Shown here: positions 24,804 to 40,371 of the stretch, one piece after another
How positions within the stretch are numbered: the stretch's first letter is position 1
Layout: each line of letters starts with the position of its first letter
Assembly (NCBI RefSeq): GCF_015841355.1
Contig: NZ_CP064908.1
Coordinates: 248,001-312,000, forward strand
Source: Synechococcus sp. CBW1107
GTDB lineage: Bacteria; Cyanobacteriota; Cyanobacteriia; PCC-6307; Cyanobiaceae
Reading direction: 5' to 3'
Length of the DNA stretch: 64,000 nucleotides
Notes under the pieces: model-generated
Told to the model about the DNA's origin: nothing
Seen by the model: the letters and a program-made list of their open reading frames with translations, nothing else
The model's database searches: none
Position numbers and translations under genes: made by a program

Positions 24804-25262
24804 TGGAGACGTCCCATCACTCCCTTCATAGCCATGTCGACTTGATGTGGTCAAGGCATTGCCACGAGCCAGCTCTCTTCGATAAACGCTGCCTCTGAGT
24901 GGCAGGCAAGACGCTACCGCTTTTGAAAGCAGCTTGAGGGTGGCCTGTCCACTCCAGGGGTTTGTTCCAAGGCGTTGTATCTCCACGGGCGTCGCTTGCA
25001 GGCCCGCGCATCGCCAGCAGTGCTCAGAGCATATCCGCTTCGCCTCTCGCGCTAGCACTTGATTTTAGCCCAAAGACCAAGATCACCTTCTGATTTGTAC
25101 TATCATAGGATCCAAGGTTCCTGGTGTTGAGTGTCAAGTCCCTTATCTTCACCCGGCTGAAATTCTTCTATCCGAGAGTGTTCGCTTCTCTCTCATTGTG
25201 GCGCCCAAAAGCTGACGTTCCCCAAGCCTTGATGCTGTCAATATCAGCCGTCACGAAGAGGC
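24804..25262. other. 459-bp intergenic stretch
   Basis: The stretch separates the patatin start from the end of the DMT transporter gene. Only shadow frames are present. The middle (25060-25250) is AT-richer and contains no recognisable structure. Confidence 0.45.
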
Positions 25263-30251: not shown

Positions 30252-30962
30252 ATGCCGCTGCGCATCCTGCTGGTCGAGGACGAAGCCGAACTGGCTGTTG
30301 CAATCCAGACGGTGCTCCAGGCGGATCAGCATGTGGTCGACCATGTCGCCGAAGGGCTCGGCGCCTGGAGCCTGCTCCGCAGCGATCTGGCCACCTACAA
30401 CCTGGTGATCGTCGATTGGATGCTGCCGGGGCTGTCCGGGGTGGACCTCTGCCGGCGGATACGGAGGGCTGGCCTCACCCTGCCGGTGCTGATGCTCACG
30501 GCCCTGGCTGATACCAGCCACCGGGTGCAGGGCCTTGATGCCGGCGCCGACGACTACCTGAGCAAGCCCTTCGCCATGGAGGAACTGCTGGCGCGGATCC
30601 GGGCGCTGCAGCGGCGCCAGCCCAGCTACCGCGAGCCACTGGTCAGCTGCGGGCCTTATCTGCTGGATCCGGCCGAGGGCTGCCTCAGCGTTGAGCAGGG
30701 AGAGGACACCACCAGGATCACCCTGTCCGCCAAGGAACTCCAGCTGATGGCCTACTTCATGGAGCATCCGCAGGAGATCATCCCGGGTTCGCGGCTGCGC
30801 TCTCAGCTCTGGTCACTGGATGAGGATCCGATCAGCAATGTGGTCGCGGCCCAGGTGCGTCTGCTGCGGCGCAAGATCGCCAGCCACGGACTGGCCTCTC
30901 CGATCGAGACCGTGCCTTCTAAGGGCTATCGCTTTGATCCGGAGTCTGAGGACAAGCCATAG
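30252..30962 (+). CDS. OmpR-family response regulator (RppA/NrsR-like)
   Basis: The 236-residue protein has a receiver domain with Asp9/Asp11-type acidic pocket (LLVEDEAEL), phospho-acceptor Asp55 (VIVDWMLPG), Thr83 (MLTALAD) and Lys105 (YLSKPFA). A winged-helix DNA-binding domain follows (LSAKELQLMAYFMEHP, VVAAQVRLLRRKIA, VPSKGYRFDP). It would activate the divergent efflux genes when phosphorylated. Its kinase gene follows 11 bases downstream but is broken by insertions, so this regulator may now be orphaned. Confidence 0.93.
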   Translation: MPLRILLVEDEAELAVAIQTVLQADQHVVDHVAEGLGAWSLLRSDLATYNLVIVDWMLPGLSGVDLCRRIRRAGLTLPVLMLTALADTSHRVQGLDAGADDYLSKPFAMEELLARIRALQRRQPSYREPLVSCGPYLLDPAEGCLSVEQGEDTTRITLSAKELQLMAYFMEHPQEIIPGSRLRSQLWSLDEDPISNVVAAQVRLLRRKIASHGLASPIETVPSKGYRFDPESEDKP

Positions 30963-32998
30963 GACATCTCGCCATGGCCAGACCTGGACCCATGTCCCGC
31001 AGCCGCCTGCGGCTGGCGGCGATGTACCTGGCGGTGATCGGGGTGATTCTCTATGCCGCCGGCTACGGGATGTTCGGCCTGTTGATGCGCTCCAACTGGA
31101 AGGCCCTCGAGAGCGAAGTGGAAACCCTCGCCGGCACTTTGCATGACAGCCTCAAACCGTTGTTGCCGGAGGAGGCCAGACCCTCTCCGCAGCTGGCCTC
31201 CGTACTGCCTGGGCTTTGCCTCGCCGGTGATCCCTGTCCATCGCCGCCTTCTCTGATCTCGCGTCATGCCGTGAGTGTCACGGACCCGGAGCGCTTCTAC
31301 CTGCGCCTGCTGGATCCCCGTGGCGTTCTGATCGCCCATTCCCCGGGATCACCAGGTCTTTCGCCACAAACCAAGGTTGAAAGCTCCGGCTCCTCGTGGT
31401 CGGTGGTGGTGGGGCCAGGGAGCGATCGCTTTCTGCAGTATTCGATCCACCTGCACCATTCGCACACATCGGCGCATTCAGGCGCGAATGCGCAGGAGCT
31501 GGATTGGGGCTACCTGCAGATCGGGCGCAGCCTGCGCGCACTGGATGCGGAACGGGAACGGCTCTGGTGGGCAACACAGACGATTGTGCTACTCGCCCTG
31601 CTGGTGGCGGGCCTGGCCAGCTGGTGGCTGTCCGGTCTGGCGATGCGGCCGCTGCTGACGGCGTACCGGCAGCAGGAGCAGTTCACGGCCGATGCGGCCC
31701 ACGAACTGCGCGCCCCTCTGGCCAACCTGCTGGCCGTGGTGGAAGCCCACAGGGCGCAGCCGCCGGCTGACGCCATGGCCCGGGTAGCGCCCCTCCGAGT
31801 GGTGTAACTCAGGAGGTCCTGTGACCCTCTCCGGAGGGTGAACAGGAGCAGTCAGGGGATGACTGCTTGGAAGCTGATTGCGCAGCTCCATTGATCCATT
31901 ATGAACCCTGATCGCTGAATTGGCAACTCAGCGATCGATGTGTTCTGTGTAGATCGAGGTAGAAGCTGGTGCGCTTCAGCTGATGGTTGCAGCCGGCTGG
32001 GCGTTCGGATCTGCATCGGTGAGCTCCAAGGGCTCTTCTGGCTCTGGGATCTTGGCCATGGTGGCCTCAGAGAAGAAGCGGCGACGCTCCAGCTGCCATT
32101 CCTCCTGCTGCTCCAGCAGCTGGCTGCCCACCAGGCGCACGATCGCTGGATCATTGGGGAAGATGCCGACCACGTTGGTGCGGCGTTTGATCTCCTTGTT
32201 GAGGCGCTCGAGCGGGTTGGTGCTCCAGACCTTGCGCCAGTGCTCCTGGGGGAAGTGCAGGAAGGCCAGCACGTCGTCCCGGGCGGCTTCCATCACGGGC
32301 ACGGCGCCGGGGAACTGCTTGCGCAGCATCTCGGTGACCCGCTGCCAGTGGGCGCGCACCTGATCTGGAGCCTGGATCACGAACACCGCTTTCATGGCAG
32401 CGGCCACCATGTCCTGGCCGGCCTTGGGCACATGGCTCAGCAGGTTGCGCAGGAAGTGCACCCGGCACCTCTGCCAGCTACTGCCCTGGAACATCCGCTT
32501 GATCGCTGCCGTCAGGCCCAGGTGGGCATCCGAGATCACCAGGCGGGTGCCGTCGAGGCCACGCTCCTTGAGTGAGCCCAGGAACTGACGCCAGAAGCCC
32601 TCCGCCTCGCTGTCGCCCACGGCAATGCCGAGAACTTCGCGGTAGCCGAGGGCATTGATGCCGATCGCCACCACCACCGCCCGCGACACCACCTGCATAT
32701 TTCGGCCCAGGCGGCCGTGGAGGTAGGTGGCGTCGAGGTAGACGTAGGGAAAGCGGGCATGGTCAAGCGGCCGGCCCAGAAAGGCTTTCACCTGCTCATC
32801 GAGCCCCTGGCAGATGCGGCTCACCTCCGATTTGGAGATGCCGCTGGCCCCGCCCAGCGCCTCCACCAGGGCGTCGACCTTGCGGGTTGTCAGGCGACAG
32901 CGAAAACTGGTCCGGAGGCGACACGAAAACTGGTCCACCCCGTGGAGCGAGCCAGGCAGGACGACAAGGGCAGCGCAGGGGCGCCATCTCTGGAGCCG

Positions 32999-34294
32999 AT
33001 GGTTCTGGAGACAGCTGTGCAGACCCCTCAGGACGTGGAGGCGATGCGACGGCTATCGGCAGCAGGTTGGGGCCGGAGGCGGATTGCTAAAGAACTGGGC
33101 TGTTCACCGGAGACGGTGCGCAAGTACCTGCGGCAGGGTGGCTGGCAGCCCTACGGGAAGCCCTGCCGCAACACGGTTCTCGATGGCCAACGGGAGTGGC
33201 TGCGGCAGCGGTTTATGGCCCACCGCGGCAATGCCGATGTGGTGCGGCAGGAGCTGGCCAGTGAGAAGGGAATCGAGGTGAGCCTGCGGACAGTGGAGCG
33301 TGCCGTGGAGCCGTGGCGGCGGGAGCTGCGCAACGCGGCCCTGGCGACGGTGCGGTTTGAGACCCCGCCGGGCCGGCAACTGCAGGCAGACTTTGGCCAG
33401 TGCCTGGTGAGCATTGGCGGCGAGCGGGTGCGGGTGCACCTGGCGGTGCTCACCCTGGGGTACTCGCGCCGGCTGCTGGTGCGGGCATTCCGCAGCGAGA
33501 AGCAGGACCACTGGCTCCAGGCCCTGGAGGAGGGTTTCCGCCACTGGGGCGGGGTACCGCAGGAGGTGCTGGTGGATAACGCCCGTGCGCTGGTGAGCCA
33601 GCACGATCCCGAGCGCAACATCCTGGTTTTTGCCGAGCGGCTGGAGGAGTTCGCCCGTTACTGGGGGTTCAAGCCCCGTGCCTGTCGGCCGTACCGGGCC
33701 AGAACCAAAGGCAAGGACGAGCGTGGGGTGGCGTACGTCAAGAGGAACGCCATCGCTGGGCGGGAGTTCAGCAGCTGGGCGGAGTTTGAGGCCCATCTGG
33801 TGCGCTGGACCCGCGAGGTGGCCGACCTGCGGGTGCACGGCACCACCGGCGAGGCGCCGCTGGACCGGTTTGTGCGGGCAGAAGCCCAGGCGTTGCAGCC
33901 GCTGGAGGCCAAGCCGTCGTTCCTGGCGGAGCGGGAGCTGGTGCGGATCGTGCACAGCGACTGCTGCGTGGAGGTGGAGGCGAACTGGTACTCGGCGCCG
34001 CAGGCGCTGATCCGTCAGCGGGTGAGCGTGCTGGTGCGCGATCAACAGGTACTGATCCGCCACGGCGGCCGGATCGTCGCTGAGCACAGGCGCCAGCGGC
34101 CCGGTAGCCGCAGCCGCCAGGTGATCGACGGCCATTGGGAGGGCCTGCTGCCGCAACGGCAGCAGCGCGAGGCGGAGCGATCGCTGCGGGATGGCAACGC
34201 AAGACGTGATCAGGAGCAGCGCCCGGTCCGCAGCTCTGAACTGGCCCGGCCTCTGGCGGTTTATGCCGAGCTGATCGGGGAGGTGGCGGCATGA
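32999..34294 (+). CDS. istA: IS21-family transposase IstA
   Basis: IstA is the DDE transposase of IS21 elements. From the ATG at 32999 the protein has 431 residues: a helix-turn-helix at about 15-45 (RRIAKELGCSPETVRKYLR), catalytic Asp131 (LQADFGQ), Asp193 (VLVDNARAL) and Glu241 (KGKDERGV), and the C-terminal beta-barrel segment EANWYSAPQALI. The frame is open further upstream only because it runs into the interrupted IS256 copy. The stop overlaps the istB start (ATGA), so the two are translated together. Confidence 0.94.
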   Translation: MVLETAVQTPQDVEAMRRLSAAGWGRRRIAKELGCSPETVRKYLRQGGWQPYGKPCRNTVLDGQREWLRQRFMAHRGNADVVRQELASEKGIEVSLRTVERAVEPWRRELRNAALATVRFETPPGRQLQADFGQCLVSIGGERVRVHLAVLTLGYSRRLLVRAFRSEKQDHWLQALEEGFRHWGGVPQEVLVDNARALVSQHDPERNILVFAERLEEFARYWGFKPRACRPYRARTKGKDERGVAYVKRNAIAGREFSSWAEFEAHLVRWTREVADLRVHGTTGEAPLDRFVRAEAQALQPLEAKPSFLAERELVRIVHSDCCVEVEANWYSAPQALIRQRVSVLVRDQQVLIRHGGRIVAEHRRQRPGSRSRQVIDGHWEGLLPQRQQREAERSLRDGNARRDQEQRPVRSSELARPLAVYAELIGEVAA

Positions 34295-35157
34295 GTCCCA
34301 CCAACCCACGCAACCGATCCACAGCGGCGATACCACCGGTACCGACCGAGGAGCTGGAGGCAATGCTCACCCGCCTACGGCTCCCAGCAATCCGCGACCG
34401 CCTCGATGCGCTGCTGGAGGAAGCGGCAAGGCGGGAGATGAACCTGCGCGAGGCCCTGGCCTGGCTGTGCGCGGCCGAGGTGGCACGCAAAGACCAGCTG
34501 CGGATGGAGATGGCGCTGCGGCTGGCGCGCTTCCCCTATGTGCGCACGCTGGAAGCGTTCGATTTCGAGGCCCAGCCGTCGATCGACCCGGCCCAGATCC
34601 GTGAGTTGGCCACCTGCCGCTGGGTGGCCAACGGCGACACCCTGCTGCTGCTCGGGCCGCCGGGTGTGGGCAAGACCCACCTGGCGGTGGCGCTGGGCCG
34701 GGAGGCGGTGCGTCTCGGTCACAGCGTCCAGTACGTCGGTGCCATGGAGCTGATCAGCGCCCTGGCCAAGGCCCAGGCGCAGCACGCCCTGGAGGGCCGG
34801 CTGACGCAGTACGCCAAAACCCGGCTGCTGATCATCGATGAGCTGGGCTACCTGCCGCTGGAGCCGAACGCTGCGTACCTGTTCTTCCAGCTGATCTCCC
34901 GCTGCTACCAGCGCGGCAGCGTGCTGATCACCTCCAACCGCCCCGTCATGGAATGGGGCGAGGTGTTTGGCGATCAGGTGGTCGCCACAGCGATCCTCGA
35001 CCGGCTGCTGCACCACAGCCACGTGCTGACGATCCGGGGCGACAGCTACCGGCTCAGGGAGAAGCGGCGCAGCGGCCTGATCCGCCCGCAGGCGGGCGGT
35101 TCCTCCTCACCGGACAGCGCTGGCCTACGGCCACCACCGCCCGGTGAGAAGGCCTAA
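34291..35157 (+). CDS. istB: IS21-family helper ATPase IstB
   Basis: IstB is the AAA+ ATPase that assists IstA in target choice and strand transfer. The 288-residue protein has an N-terminal helical domain, Walker A at 122-129 (GPPGVGKT), Walker B at 179-185 (LLIIDEL) and sensor 1 region VLITSNRPVMEWGEVF. The end (SGLIRPQAGG then a Ser/Pro tail) is slightly extended compared with usual IstB. The start overlaps the end of istA by 4 bases. Confidence 0.95.
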   Translation: MSPTNPRNRSTAAIPPVPTEELEAMLTRLRLPAIRDRLDALLEEAARREMNLREALAWLCAAEVARKDQLRMEMALRLARFPYVRTLEAFDFEAQPSIDPAQIRELATCRWVANGDTLLLLGPPGVGKTHLAVALGREAVRLGHSVQYVGAMELISALAKAQAQHALEGRLTQYAKTRLLIIDELGYLPLEPNAAYLFFQLISRCYQRGSVLITSNRPVMEWGEVFGDQVVATAILDRLLHHSHVLTIRGDSYRLREKRRSGLIRPQAGGSSSPDSAGLRPPPPGEKA

Positions 35158-36397
35158 GGGGAACCCGGATCAAGCGGCACAGATGCCGCAGCCAACAACA
35201 ACGACACGACACCCACCGATGAAACACCGATCCAAGGGCAGCCGTAAGGCCCCCATCAGCAAGCCATCAGGTGGACCAGTTTTCGTGTCGCCGGAGGACC
35301 AAAAGCGGATGTCGCTTGACACGGGTGGAGATCCCGCCGGTGTAGGCCTCCATCACCACGGCGTAGAGCGCCTTGTCCACCCGGCGGCGTGGCTCCAGCC
35401 AGCTGGGAAAGAAGCTGCCCTGCCGCAACCTGGGAATGGCCAGGCTGAGGTCGCCCACCTGGGTGGTGAGCAGCCGCTCCCGGTAGCCGTTGCGATGGGT
35501 GGAGCGCTGATCGGGGCAGCGCTCATGGAGTTGAGCGCCCGTGAGGGCAGAAACCTCGGCTTCCAGCAGGTCCTGGAAACCCCGGCGCACGATCTCTGGG
35601 ATCAGGGCGCCAGCGGTGGTGCCCTCCATGAGCTGGCTCAGCTCGGAGGCGCCACTATGGGTGAGGGTCATGGTCTGTGTTCGGTTTGGTGGTAGTTCTC
35701 CGAACAGGGTCACAGACCGGCCCACCCATTGCCACAGCTGAAATCTGAGGGAGGTGAGCCGTCAGCCCCGGCTACGCCGGGGCTGATCCTCCTGAGTTAC
35801 ACCACTTGCTGGGACGCCGCTATGGCCCGGGAGCAGATGCTGGCGGCGGTCTACGGGCAAGGTCAACGGCTGAGCCGTTTGATCAGTGACCTGCTGCTGT
35901 TAGCCCGGCTCGATGGATCCGAGGCCGCAGCGGCTGTGCAGCCCTGCTCCTTGGCTGAGATCGCGCGCGATCTCCTGGAGGAGACCAGCGAGGCGGCGGC
36001 AGCAGCCGAAGTGCAACTGCGTCTGCTGGGTGGTGAAGACGATCTCACTGTGTTGGGGGTGGAGTCAGAGCTCTATCGGCTCGTGTCCAACCTGCTCCAG
36101 AACGCGATTCAATACACGGCCCCAGGCGGTGAGGTGGTGCTGAGCCTGAAGCGTGAGGGAAATCATGGGGTGCTGCAGGTGCAAGACAGCGGCATCGGCA
36201 TCACCCCGGCCGATCAACAACGCATCTTCGATCGCTTCTTCCGCAGTGATCCCGGTCGTTCCCGCCGTCAGGGCGGCACCGGCCTTGGCCTCTCGATCGT
36301 GGCCGCGATCGTGCGCCGCCATCACGGACAAATCTCTGTGGACTCCACGCCTGGATTCGGGAGTGTCTTCTCCGTGACGTTGCCCTTGGCTGGCTGA

Positions 36398-36893
36398 GGT
36401 CCGTGGATGGCTGGGATTACTCTTGATATCTCAAGGGGATGGAAATGCTTTCGCATGTAAATTGCCAAGGCCTCAATAAAGCTGTGCAACGACGAGAGTC
36501 TTCCCACGAGTGGCCGAGAACCATTGTCGGCCGAACATGATAGAGATTGATTTCGTGCGGGATCTTTCAATGCCTGCATCAATTTCCCAGAGCAGCAAAA
36601 AACCAGAGATGCTGCTCGAGTGAGATTGAACGCGCGTAGTGCAACCGATTGCATTCTCGATCCTGAAGATGCTAGGGGCAGTAGATCAATAAACATTGAG
36701 TATTTAGTTGGCCGCCTGGCCACTTGCTAACAGAGCAAGCTGCGGCGGATCTTATGGTGGAAAGGTTTACATTGTGACTCCCACTGCACATCTCGCATCC
36801 TTCGAACGCTCAAGATCAGCGGCGGGCGGAAGATCCATGCGATTGGGAAAGCATCACCGCTCCCGTCCGCTGGATCTTGATGTTAGCAACTCC
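36398..36893. other. 496-bp AT-richer intergenic stretch
   Basis: This gap between the kinase end and the DUF4041 gene holds only short frames. Base composition changes from GC-rich to AT-richer here, marking the left side of the 36.4-39.2 kb accessory patch. Confidence 0.45.
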
Positions 36894-38393
36894 CTACGTC
36901 TCTACTGGATCATCTTGTTCGAGCAGAGCGGGAGGTGGAGGTGGAGGCAAACGTGCAGGCTCATCGACAAGATAGGAACGCTCAAACTCCTTACGTTTTG
37001 CTTCACTGAGCCGGTACTGCTTTGCTTCGGCGACCAGCGTGAGACGCAGGTCTGCTTGAACGCCTTCTTCTTGATGGATTTTGTATAATTCATCTCGAAT
37101 CTCTTCGATTGAGACTCGGAAGAACTCCTTTCTCATGTTCTCAAAGTTAATTCTTCGTAAGTTGAATCGCTTGTGAAGGGTGTTCTCTAGTGAAGGTGCG
37201 TCCTCTGTGAATATAAGCGCATGAACGTCAAACGGGAACGGAACCGAAGCATCTCCAAGTTCTCGGACACGATCTAGCGGCTCAATCCTGCGAGTCATCC
37301 CTATCTTGTAGACATGTTCGCCAAAGCTGCCGACATTGCTAATCACATAGACATGCCCTGATCTTGTCATCTGCGCTCTACTAATGGCGCGTTGCCGATT
37401 GGCCTCTGCTTCGGCTAGTAATTCTTCAAGCTTATTAATCTTCTCATTTAGCCTATCCTTGTCTTGGTCAGTCGCTCGCTGCGCTTCTGCTTTGGCTTTT
37501 TCAAGCATATCTGCAAACTTTGCTTCGTCTTTCTCGGCTTGCTCTCGAGCCTTTTCAATCTCTCGAATCGCCCTTTCTTCTTCTCTCATCTGTTCGCGTA
37601 TCTGGGCCTGTTCCTCCTTTTCTTTTTGTTTCGCCTCTTCATAGGTAAAACTAAGCCTGAGTTCTTCGATCCGGTTGTCCAGATACTTGGTGCTAATGCT
37701 GCAGAACCACGACTCTCCTAGTCGGTTTATCTGCTCATGGCTGGTTTCAATGCGTTTTTCCATTGCTGAAATGTTTTTATAGGTAACTCTGGCTATGTAC
37801 GAATCGCACTCCCCGTTGAAAGCTCGTAGCATTAGTTTTAAAATCTTCTTGATCATTGAGCGCCCTTGAGAAACCGAATCGTTGAATCGAATTGTCTCAG
37901 AACAGAATGCAGCAGCACTTCTCTCTCCCTCGCTGCCATCCATGCGAAGCATTTGCTTCTGCTGTTCACGAATTCTTCGAAGAGCAGCCTCATAGGATGG
38001 AAGATCGTCAAAGTCATAGCCAGCCTCGAAGTATCCCACCTCCAGCAAATGAATGTCGTCGTTTTTCAGGGCGATGGCCTGATTGATAAAGTCCAGCTCA
38101 TTCTGCGCCTCCTCGCGCTTTGACTGGAGCGAGGATATTGACTCCCCAATACTCTCGGCCTCCCGCTCAAGATGTTCCAGCTTGGCTTGCCCCTTCGCAA
38201 CAATTGAATCTGCCGTCTTCTTGCTCTGTTCTTGAAGCACGGAAGACCGCTTTCTTATTCGCTCAGCTTCCTCTTCAGCATTGGTGATGGGTGCGTACTT
38301 GCTACGGAGCTTGGAGATTTTTCGCTGGGCTATAACTGCCCATATGAATAGACCGCCTGCGCCGCCCAACAACAATGCAATAACGCCTTCCAT
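36894..38393 (-). CDS. DUF4041 and T5orf172 (GIY-YIG-like) domain protein
   Basis: The 499-residue protein starts with one membrane helix (residues ~4-22). A long coiled coil with Glu/Lys/Gln repeats follows (~35-115 and again ~240-325), with a DUF4041-like core between (YEAALRRIREQQKQML, FNDSVSQGRSMIKKILKLML). The C-terminal T5orf172 domain starts SGHVYVISNVGSFG and continues VYKIGMTRRIEPLDRVRELG, EDAPSLENTLHKRF and RRINFENMRKEFFRVS, the arrangement of GIY-YIG-type nucleases. It ends with a poly-proline tail. Such proteins occur in phages and accessory regions; a DNA-targeting or defence role is inferred only. Codon use is clearly AT-richer than neighbours, pointing to transfer. Confidence 0.88.
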   Translation of the reverse strand: MEGVIALLLGGAGGLFIWAVIAQRKISKLRSKYAPITNAEEEAERIRKRSSVLQEQSKKTADSIVAKGQAKLEHLEREAESIGESISSLQSKREEAQNELDFINQAIALKNDDIHLLEVGYFEAGYDFDDLPSYEAALRRIREQQKQMLRMDGSEGERSAAAFCSETIRFNDSVSQGRSMIKKILKLMLRAFNGECDSYIARVTYKNISAMEKRIETSHEQINRLGESWFCSISTKYLDNRIEELRLSFTYEEAKQKEKEEQAQIREQMREEERAIREIEKAREQAEKDEAKFADMLEKAKAEAQRATDQDKDRLNEKINKLEELLAEAEANRQRAISRAQMTRSGHVYVISNVGSFGEHVYKIGMTRRIEPLDRVRELGDASVPFPFDVHALIFTEDAPSLENTLHKRFNLRRINFENMRKEFFRVSIEEIRDELYKIHQEEGVQADLRLTLVAEAKQYRLSEAKRKEFERSYLVDEPARLPPPPPPALLEQDDPVET

Positions 38394-39211
38394 AAGAACT
38401 CAGGAATAATTCCAATCATTGTGCCCTATTTCGGTGCCAGCTGGGTCAAGCCAGTTGAGTTTCAGCGCGTTGAGGAAACTCTTGTCTCGTTCTGGGATGC
38501 TGCTAACGCTAATTGGACGGACCCGCATAAAGTCCCTTTTCCTCTGCCACCGGCAGCATAAGAACCCTCGGTCCTAAGGGCAATAATACCGAACCCCTGT
38601 GATGGCATGGGTTCTTGGATGGACGCGTCCAAACCCCAGTGTCTTATGCGGATCCGCATAAGACTGTTCAGCAATTAATATAACTTGGGCTGACTTGGTG
38701 CCGCTTAGATGGGCACTGTCGCCGAACACTTTCACAAGATTCTTAATTGCCATAGCGCCGAAGTAGCAGCAAGATAGTGAGAACACAGCACTCTATCCAG
38801 TCAAGGCCTGCTAAACTGGATGGCGGACGACTCTTCTTCCTGACCATCGGATTTGACGTGCTCGAAGTTCTCGCCTTGGTTGAGGACGCAGCGCTGGGTG
38901 TCGATCATCGGCTCACCGGTGAGTTGTTCGGCACCCTGGTTCGCCAAGTTCTTTTCGGCTGGCTCGGCCGCGACGGCAAACACGGAATCATGCCGGACGC
39001 AAGACAGTCCTCTTTGTCAACCTTCCAGCTCACACTGCTGGCGCGCGGCCTGCAAGGCGAACAGACATTCTGCCCCAAAAGCCTTCGGTGCCTCTCTCGG
39101 GGCTGTGGAGGAAGGCAACTGTGAGTGAGTGAATCAGATCCGCTCATCTCTAGTTCCCAAGGCCTTGTGCAAGCCATGCTGGAACGAGAACACGGCCCCA
39201 AGTGGGCGCTC
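38394..39211. other. 818-bp AT-richer stretch with palindromes and possible gene remnants
   Basis: No confident gene is present. Minus-strand frames at 38801-38983 (60 residues, including LANQGAEQLTGEPMIDTQR) and 38574-38786 could be pieces of decayed genes, unrecognised. Two perfect palindromes lie at 38620-38631 and 38641-38664. Confidence 0.45.
38641..38664. repeat. 24-bp perfect palindrome
   Basis: The left half GTCTTATGCGGA is followed directly by its exact reverse complement. Eleven bases upstream lies a 12-bp perfect palindrome (38620-38631, TGGACGCGTCCA). Partial matches to the half-site (CCGCATAA) occur at about 38522. The form suggests a binding site for a dimeric protein or a recombination site. 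Confidence 0.6.
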
Positions 39212-40279
39212 TCAATAGCTGTAGTTGGCCTCGAACAGCGACTTGCCATCCGAAGGCTCCGATCCGGCGACATACACTCCCCGGGCCGACTGGCCATTGG
39301 CGCGGGCCCGCGCCAGCAGCGCCTGCTGTCCTGATACCACGTCGTGGCCGGCCCAGTGCTTCAGGCAGGACTGCTGCAGCGCGCGTCCATAGGAGAAGCC
39401 CAGGTGCCAGGGCGCAACACCAACAGCCTGGTGGATGGCATTGAGGTAGACGCTGGCCTCCTCCTCGCTCAGACCGCCCGAGAGGAACAGGATCGCCGGC
39501 ACGGCGGCGGGCACGCAGCGCTGCAGGGTGCGTAGCGTAAATTCCGCCGCCTGCTCCGGTGTGGGCCGCTGGAGGCATTCGGCGCCGGGAAGGGTCATCG
39601 ACGGCTTCAGCAGGCTGCCCTCAAGAAACACGCCGTTGATCGCCAGGGCCTCGTAGACAAGGCGCAGCACCCATTCCTGCACCGCAGCGGTGGTCTCGAT
39701 GTCGTGGTCGCCGTCCATCAGGATTTCGGGCTCCACGATCGGCACCAGTCCTTCCTCCTGCACGGTGCGGGCGTAACGGGCCAGGCCCCAGGCGTTCTCA
39801 CGTACGGCCAGCTCCGACGGGCAGTCATCGGCGGTGATACGCAGCACCGCCCGCCATTTGGCGAAACGGGCACCGCGCGCGTAGTAGCGGGCCGCCCGCT
39901 CCTGCAGTCCCTTGAGCCCGGTGCACCAGGTCTCGCCCGGCAGGCCCCCGGCGAGAGGCTCCAGCCCCTGATCCACCTTGATGCCCGGCACCAGACCCTG
40001 GGCCTTGAACAGATCAAGAATCGAGCCACCGTCCGCGGCGTCCTGAAACAGGGTTTCCTCGTAAAGGATCACGCCGCTGATCCACTCCCCCAGCCCGGGC
40101 GCCGTGGCCAGCAGGGTGCGGTAGGCGCGGCGGTGCTCCTCGCTGTTCTCGACCCCGATCGCCGCGAAGCGCTTGCCGATCGTGCCGGTGGATTCGTCGG
40201 CGGCCAGCAATCCGCTGCCGGGCCGGGCGAGGGCGGTAGCGGTGGCTGCCAGCTCCTCGCGGTGGGTGTCGAGTGCCAT
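39212..40279 (-). CDS. class I fructose-bisphosphate aldolase
   Basis: The enzyme splits fructose-1,6-bisphosphate (and, in the Calvin cycle, joins triose phosphates) through a Schiff base. The 355-residue protein has the class I blocks LLAADESTGTIGKRF, GIKVDQGLEPL, FAKWRAVLRI, IVEPEILMDGDHD, FLEGSLLKPSMTLPG (Schiff-base Lys) and the conserved C-terminal Tyr in EANYSY. The ATG at 40279 (ALDTHREEL) matches the usual start; an ATG at 40303 adds eight residues. It is full length and GC-rich like the host. Confidence 0.95.
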   Translation of the reverse strand: MALDTHREELAATATALARPGSGLLAADESTGTIGKRFAAIGVENSEEHRRAYRTLLATAPGLGEWISGVILYEETLFQDAADGGSILDLFKAQGLVPGIKVDQGLEPLAGGLPGETWCTGLKGLQERAARYYARGARFAKWRAVLRITADDCPSELAVRENAWGLARYARTVQEEGLVPIVEPEILMDGDHDIETTAAVQEWVLRLVYEALAINGVFLEGSLLKPSMTLPGAECLQRPTPEQAAEFTLRTLQRCVPAAVPAILFLSGGLSEEEASVYLNAIHQAVGVAPWHLGFSYGRALQQSCLKHWAGHDVVSGQQALLARARANGQSARGVYVAGSEPSDGKSLFEANYSY

Positions 40280-40371
40280 GGAATGCAGCGGTGCCTGCTC
40301 CATGGCTAAGGGCGCATCCTGCCGCCGTCAACGCGGTGGGGCCGCCACACCACCCGTCGAGCCGAAGTATT

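Follow-up and report, generated by a model that had tools for sequence, protein, structure and literature searches.

A SNIPE homologue gene alone in an integron cassette of the cyanobacterium Synechococcus sp. CBW1107

The window, a stretch of 64,000 nucleotides from Synechococcus sp. CBW1107 (contig NZ_CP064908.1, positions 248,001 to 312,000), carries on its minus strand an intact reading frame (36894-38393), full length and without stops, for a homologue of the phage defense protein SNIPE. Its surroundings are richer in AT, as described in an earlier sequence-only reading of the window, with a GC content of 0.466 at 37 to 38 kb versus 0.58 to 0.73 in most of the window. The gene occupies an integron cassette by itself, a feature which that reading overlooked. 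The features of the locus, all on the minus strand, are as follows.

36807..38506, minus strand: integron gene cassette of 1700 bp with one gene, between two G^TT crossover points (borders of shared DNA)
36802..36887, minus strand: attC recombination site, 6 bp after the SNIPE stop codon (covariance model R1, 65 bits, E=1.4e-14)
36894..38393, minus strand: SNIPE (PD-lambda-1) homologue gene, 499 aa, ATG start
38328..38384, minus strand: N-terminal membrane helix, residues 4-22 (hydrophobicity)
38040..38279, minus strand: first long helix or coiled coil, residues 39-118 (structure model)
37671..37838, minus strand: DUF4041, Pfam span, residues 186-241 (PF13250, E=1.9e-21)
37362..37691, minus strand: second long helix or coiled-coil linker, residues 235-344 (structure model)
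37089..37358, minus strand: GIY-YIG nuclease domain (T5orf172/MUG113), residues 346-435, with Y349, R368, R369, and E403 (Pfam)
38505..38523, minus strand: attI core GGTCCGTCCAATTAGCGTT, the cassette insertion point, with no integrase gene adjoining (identity with genome G225)
39212..40303, minus strand: class I fructose-bisphosphate aldolase gene, the attI-side flank that is conserved in congeners (family search)

The protein combines one membrane helix, long coiled coil, DUF4041, and a T5orf172 domain, an architecture proposed by the sequence-only reading and confirmed by Pfam, hydrophobicity, and the structure model. The single hydrophobic segment, residues 4 to 22, has a Kyte-Doolittle mean of 2.35, compared to 0.72 for the next best nonoverlapping segment. 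No lysine or arginine precedes this helix, and 5 are found within the following 15 residues. The positive-inside rule relates such flanking charges to membrane topology, and the pattern therefore indicates an N-out/C-in orientation. The nuclease domain is recognized as MUG113 (residues 362-435, E=1.1e-17) and T5orf172 (residues 346-435, E=2e-16), and these two matches and that of DUF4041 each exceed the curated Pfam cut-off. An AlphaFold2 model built from an alignment of 59 proteins (mean pLDDT, 86; pTM, 0.48) shows a long helix and a helical DUF4041, then another long helical stretch and an alpha/beta domain; DSSP splits the second long helix of the model into residues 235-306 and 309-344. 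For the folding alignment, 80 genome_contigs loci yielded 72 complete reading frames of 380 to 700 aa, of which 58 were used.

The catalytic Tyr, Arg, and Glu of the GIY-YIG fold, for which the sequence-only reading suggested an alignment, are intact as Y349, R368, R369, and E403. These four residues together with N416 and E423 are invariant in all 14 aligned proteins, and 80 further homologues retain Y349 in 79, R368 in 79, R369 in 80, and E403 in 79 cases. Residues 346 to 453 of the model resemble two chains of the GIY-YIG nuclease Slx1 in VIA-align comparisons (6seh_A, Z 8.3, rmsd 2.2, 89 aligned; 6sei_C, Z 8.4, rmsd 2.7, 97 aligned), as well as At-HIGLE (7wme, Z 7.8, rmsd 2.4, 91 aligned). 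A search of solved structures by sequence with the window protein returned no similar chain. Among viral models, the top structural match is a siphovirus protein called helicase (E=6e-18), followed by T5orf172 proteins, and this search gave no new function for the window protein.

The Slx1-like fold, as shown by the match to 6seh_A, would also suit a housekeeping or repair nuclease without a role in defense. The distribution of the gene is patchy, however, and does not fit a housekeeping function: it occurs in one of the nine genomes of the genus and, at E<=1e-20, in 16 of 400 genomes of the family. At E<=0.001, the family count rises to 35 of 400, the additional matches being mostly short and confined to the nuclease domain, and 35 of 388 genomes of the class have a match at E<=1e-20. 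Moreover, DUF4041 and the membrane anchor fit the PD-Lambda-1 profile along nearly the whole protein, and a housekeeping or repair function is barely conceivable. Neither missing catalytic residues nor a housekeeping-like distribution, whose combination the sequence-only reading named as speaking against a defense gene, is found.

The window protein is a SNIPE homologue and an ordinary member of a family with a published mechanism. Two PADLOC PD-Lambda-1 profiles match nearly the full length (E=3e-157 and 2.3e-150), the better one, PDLC03977, pairing residues 25-472 with profile positions 37-477 of 496. PHROG 1847, a family of unknown function, matches with an E value of 1.2e-136. The PD-lambda-1 protein annotated in Escherichia phage PhiR26_1 shows 43% identity and 66% positives over 421 aligned positions. 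PD-lambda-1 has been renamed SNIPE in a 2026 Nature paper (PMC13190303), which shows that the Escherichia coli protein is located in the inner membrane, binds the tape-measure protein of siphoviruses, and cuts phage DNA during injection. According to the same source, 59% of SNIPE homologues have one transmembrane segment, and defense against most siphoviruses of one collection is independent of ManYZ. The exchange W257R is reported there to raise defense against Bas14 and to be frequent among homologues. The PhiR26_1 protein carries the wild-type letters of that paper at E223, N250, L253, W257, E264, K305, I308, T319, and E414; since all nine positions fit, the E. coli numbering can be used, whereby E414 corresponds to E403 and W257 to R246 of the window protein. 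The sequence-only reading had proposed a single-gene defense acting on incoming DNA at the membrane, which holds at the level of the SNIPE family; the closest characterized relative of the window protein is the SNIPE of E. coli. Its candidate defense gene is likewise supported by this homology, although it belongs to an already known kind and is not a new system.

The extent of the mobile unit becomes apparent from comparison with other SNIPE-bearing loci. BLASTN of the window against these loci reveals a single common block, beginning at about 36797 to 36805 and ending at 38507 to 38524, with unrelated flanks on both sides. Identity within the block amounts to 94.9% in G225, 90.1% in G113, 90.6% in G165, and 85.3% in G187. 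G113 additionally shares a distant dehydrogenase gene with the window (76%). The borders of the block are formed by GTTAGC and by a hairpin TGCTAAC...GAGCGTT. The site at 36802-36887 has folding energies of -34.4 kcal/mol for one strand and -36.0 kcal/mol for the other.

Integron attC sites have a known anatomy, which guided the search; sites were found first with a simple arm-pairing script, and the covariance model R1 was then built from 13 aligned sites, none from SNIPE cassettes and none in the window. In this alignment, 90.6% of the cells are paired, 13 of 23 pairs are changed on both sides, and the covariation score is 0.526 versus 0.136 in shuffles, with 0 of 500 shuffles reaching 0.526. 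Three short or irregular sites from the arm test (L036:3146, L074:13317, and L035:14929) were omitted from training, and all three were later detected by R1. R1 detects the attC sites that end the SNIPE cassettes of G225, G113, and G165. In G225 and G113, attC sites occur both before and after the SNIPE cassette, making SNIPE one of several cassettes in a row, while the window cassette stands alone at an orphan attI. The attC ends of the relatives in G187 and G357 are decayed. The cassettes after SNIPE in G113 (L035, 12268-15841) code for an HNH nuclease (PADLOC HNH, 6e-10) and a uracil-DNA-glycosylase-like protein as well as for a nucleotidyltransferase/HepT pair (PADLOC PDC-S09, 3.5e-27), together a small defense-like array. 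A second attC in the window (24882-24969, minus strand; R1 46 bits, E=1.2e-9) adjoins a patatin-like phospholipase gene (PF01734) on the same strand, possibly another lone cassette.

The sequence-only reading took the gene for transferred DNA directly beside an IS-rich zone. The transfer is borne out and the IS zone is real, but it is the cassette that carries the gene, and IS elements do not bound it. In this zone, an IS256-type transposase is split by IS21 IstA/IstB (32.0 to 35.7 kb), and the IS256-type element in turn splits a two-component sensor kinase into HisKA and HATPase halves (30974-31807, 31979-35725, and 35729-36397). The adjacent response regulator gene (30252-30962) is intact. 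Movement of the gene by these elements instead of an integron would be in keeping with their position less than 2 kb away. The IS block, however, interrupts the sensor kinase gene and leaves about 1.1 kb between its end and the cassette, and the unit common to four other genomes ends at integron crossover points, not at IS ends, with unrelated flanks. IS-mediated transfer is rejected on this ground and is very improbable.

The insertion point is equally well defined. The cassette is preceded by the 22-base sequence GGGTCCGTCCAATTAGCGTTAG, which is found identically beside intI in G225, a member of another genus. A relaxed attI pattern is present in eight of the nine genomes of the genus, at 14 places, compared to 0 for the reversed control. 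Six of these places lie 159 to 197 bp past the 3' end of intI or an intI fragment (G000, the genome of the window, and G004, G005, G006, G007, and G008), distances derived by subtraction from the TIGR02249 match positions. In the congeners G006 and G008, the same aldolase-side flank runs unbroken into GCGTTCGAAGGATG, and an exact copy of the 11 bases past the crossover follows the SNIPE attC. The aldolase-side flank of these two genomes continues through AATTAGCGTTCGAAGGATG; in the window, AATTAGCGTTCGAAGGATG is interrupted after AATTAGCG by the cassette, and TTCGAAGGATG is exactly repeated past the SNIPE attC. Congeners without SNIPE share the other flank of the window; in two of the four compared, the shared part starts at 38497. 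In G008 (L048, 6475-7300), a toxin-antitoxin-like pair, whose toxin scores just under the PF05973 cut-off, and an attC match come after the orphan attI near the aldolase gene, so that a different cassette occupies this position. In G006 (L050), the aldolase-side attI is followed by sequence closely similar to the G008 cassette. The aldolase-side attI thus seems to exchange cassettes between species.

The integrase profile TIGR02249 exceeds its cut-off in 15 of the 21 genomes searched; G203 and G186 show neither an intI nor an attC match. The genome of the window has only two TIGR02249 places, an intact intI at 905398-906330 (461 bits versus a cut-off of 265) and a second one at 1,270 kb broken by two stops. 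No intI remnant was found in the window by tblastn with a 366-aa IntI, the best value being E=1.2, nor did this query match the aldolase-side loci L048, L049, and L050. In L051, a C-terminal IntI fragment (E=1e-11) is separated from the aldolase gene by some 6.5 kb. For the window cassette, integrase is available in trans only. R1 finds 11 attC sites in the window's genome, four of them in a row adjoining the intact integrase. The host's own integron (G000:C1, 901716-906330; L074) comprises the intact intI, an attI motif, and the four attC sites, and one of its cassettes encodes a toxin-like protein, just under the PF05973 cut-off, with an antitoxin (PF21716). In G165, the SNIPE cassette adjoins an intI fragment. 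The usual integron layout is divergent, but in the integrons of G000, G225, and G165, attI and the cassettes share the strand of intI and lie past its 3' end.

The missing integrase gene at the window attI, the decay of attC in two relatives, and the failure to find a promoter-like site upstream of the gene (a scan of the cassette gives two sites, neither of them in front of it, while shuffled sequences average 1.9) could also describe decayed or silent cargo, a SNIPE stranded and no longer expressed or useful. This has a small but real chance of being correct. Against it, the reading frame is full length, stop-free, and 94% identical to the copy of G225, the catalytic residues are intact, and dN/dS lies between 0.13 and 0.20 in all ten pairs of cassette SNIPEs and between 0.02 and 0.14 within the nuclease domain. 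Purifying selection is accompanied by horizontal spread. The cassette is present in three genera, and the fourfold-site identity of SNIPE to the window copy (0.897 in G225, 0.807 in G113, 0.818 in G165, and 0.698 in G187) is higher than that of rpoB (0.650, 0.592, 0.625, and 0.319, respectively). The GC content of SNIPE is 0.46 to 0.48 in all five copies versus 0.53 to 0.66 for rpoB. The dN/dS values and the higher synonymous identity of SNIPE compared to rpoB together indicate that the protein was kept while the cassette moved. G197 and G079 (L039 to L042), from two other genera, contain more distantly related SNIPE genes that have no adjacent attC and are about 20 kb away from the same class I aldolase gene, which may reflect chance or a shared hotspot.

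SNIPE homologues also travel with other replicons, as matches occur in 39 of 50,697 phage records and 186 of 72,556 plasmid records. The Synechococcus phages Yong-L1-251 (L030, 5206-6873) and Ssp-JY37 encode a SNIPE-like gene of their own, perhaps against rival phages. These homologues in plasmids and phages, the two Synechococcus phages among them, and the presence of PD-lambda-1 in PhiR26_1 would suit a gene recently acquired from a phage with another job, in competition between mobile elements or in superinfection exclusion by a prophage. By family search, however, the neighbors of the window gene are host and IS genes and not phage genes, and its relatives stand in arrays beside toxin-antitoxin, HNH, and uracil-DNA-glycosylase cassettes. 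The E. coli protein, moreover, does not block plasmid transformation, as stated in PMC13190303. Such another job is therefore quite unlikely, and no evidence was found for the interelement competition considered by the sequence-only reading.

Outside the family, R1 places attC sites directly after SNIPE homologues of other cyanobacterial families, in G405 (protein 46% identical) and G566 (49%). The site of G405 (1403-1487) has further sites on either side, in a contig with many attC matches in one direction, and this genome carries an above-cut-off integrase gene that contains one stop. In G572, the attC overlaps the SNIPE stop codon, and an interrupted intI lies about 0.5 kb upstream; G405 and G572 share 1,584 columns of DNA at 90.5%, ending at the GTT start. 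The sensitivity of R1 is incomplete, as the stop-codon attC of G572 is plain in the sequence, with an arm-test score of 38, yet is not listed by the model. The attC of G566 reaches 28.8 bits with R1 and fails the arm test because it begins with TGAC and not TAAC. In a FastTree phylogeny of 57 proteins, the two cassette groups stand apart (supports of 1.0 and 0.94), each within cyanobacterial SNIPEs without adjacent attC. The tree draws on 24 of the 80 loci, on 19 of 27 cyanobacterial loci at class level, and on 11 family loci and contains their proteins together with the window protein, PhiR26_1, and Yong-L1-251, those of L017, L019, and L020 entering with a shortened N terminus. The separate positions suggest two captures, a count which is tentative given the small tree and the sites that R1 can miss. 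By sequence, other cyanobacterial families thus appear to have turned a divergent SNIPE into a cassette on a separate occasion.

The cassette form is a minority within the SNIPE family. R1, run over 85 loci (the 80 from genome_contigs and 5 of the 18 viral ones), gives adjacent matches only in L088, 1 of the 80 genome_contigs loci, the match in L089 being nonadjacent. In a general attC search, 7 of 160 SNIPE flanks from other phyla score >=30, compared to 4 of 240 background windows. None of these flanks is attC-like except L088, and that of L167 reads as a terminator; for this reason, no cassette is claimed outside the cyanobacteria.

Taken together, the locus very probably represents an integron cassette whose single gene encodes an anti-phage nuclease of the SNIPE family. 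By analogy with the published E. coli protein, SNIPE would be held in the cytoplasmic membrane by its N-terminal helix, and both DUF4041 and the GIY-YIG nuclease would be located on the cytoplasmic side. During injection by a siphovirus, DUF4041 would attach to the tape-measure protein and to the DNA of the virus and so place the nuclease on the incoming genome, which would be cut at this stage, while membrane tethering would keep the nuclease off the chromosome. The EIID component (PF03613) of ManYZ was found in none of five genomes, the control being positive in E. coli, Bacillus subtilis, and Lactococcus lactis. Without ManYZ, the lambda-specific recruitment cannot apply, which makes the published ManYZ-independent tape-measure route likely, and the membrane helix may have a different host protein as its partner. 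The cassette itself would have arrived when an integron integrase recombined its attC with the orphan attI by the aldolase gene.

SNIPE distinguishes self from nonself by place, at the membrane during injection, and a one-gene system of this kind without a fixed host partner suits an integron cassette. Chances are about even for a broader proposal, in which cyanobacterial integrons shuttle entry-blocking nucleases. Here, SNIPE would have become a cassette at least twice from chromosomal cyanobacterial SNIPEs, in a Cyanobiaceae-type form (G000, G225, G113, G165, and G187) and in a form about 46 to 49% identical to the window protein (G405, G566, and G572), and strains would swap SNIPE with toxin-antitoxin cassettes at the same attI, thereby adjusting phage resistance. 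The window cassette itself illustrates how picocyanobacteria could gain and exchange phage resistance without a phage or plasmid carrier. The five related cassettes, the second independent set, and the empty or differently filled attI sites of congeners form a natural, sequence-defined test set. In one open-access library, no report of SNIPE or PD-lambda-1 within an integron was found, and nothing was found on SNIPE phage defense in cyanobacteria or on an integron integrase in picocyanobacteria.

Compared with known systems, the window protein shares with E. coli SNIPE, as portrayed in PMC13190303 and PMC9519451, the single N-terminal helix, coiled coil, DUF4041, and C-terminal GIY-YIG domain, the same catalytic Glu, the single-gene organization, and the PADLOC match over nearly the full length. 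It differs in showing only 43% identity, in naturally having Arg (R246) at the position of W257, in a host without the ManYZ-type EIID, and in its location in an integron cassette, the word "integron" being absent from the main texts of these two papers. Chromosomal integrons of cyanobacteria are named in PMC2426708, PMC9668308, PMC8618304, and PMC8352920, and the present clade resembles them in containing intI, attI, and attC; the relevant passages of these papers do not mention a SNIPE cassette. Defense genes in integron cassettes have already been published by Darracq (2025), Getz (2025), and Kieffer (2025), as cited in PMC12444791. Like these integron-borne anti-phage cassettes, the window cassette has a defense gene as its attC cargo, and its relatives are arrayed with toxin-antitoxin cassettes. 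Unlike those, which by their titles and the citing text belong to sedentary chromosomal Vibrio integrons and mobile integrons, it resides in a cyanobacterial host and carries a SNIPE cargo of 1.5 kb.
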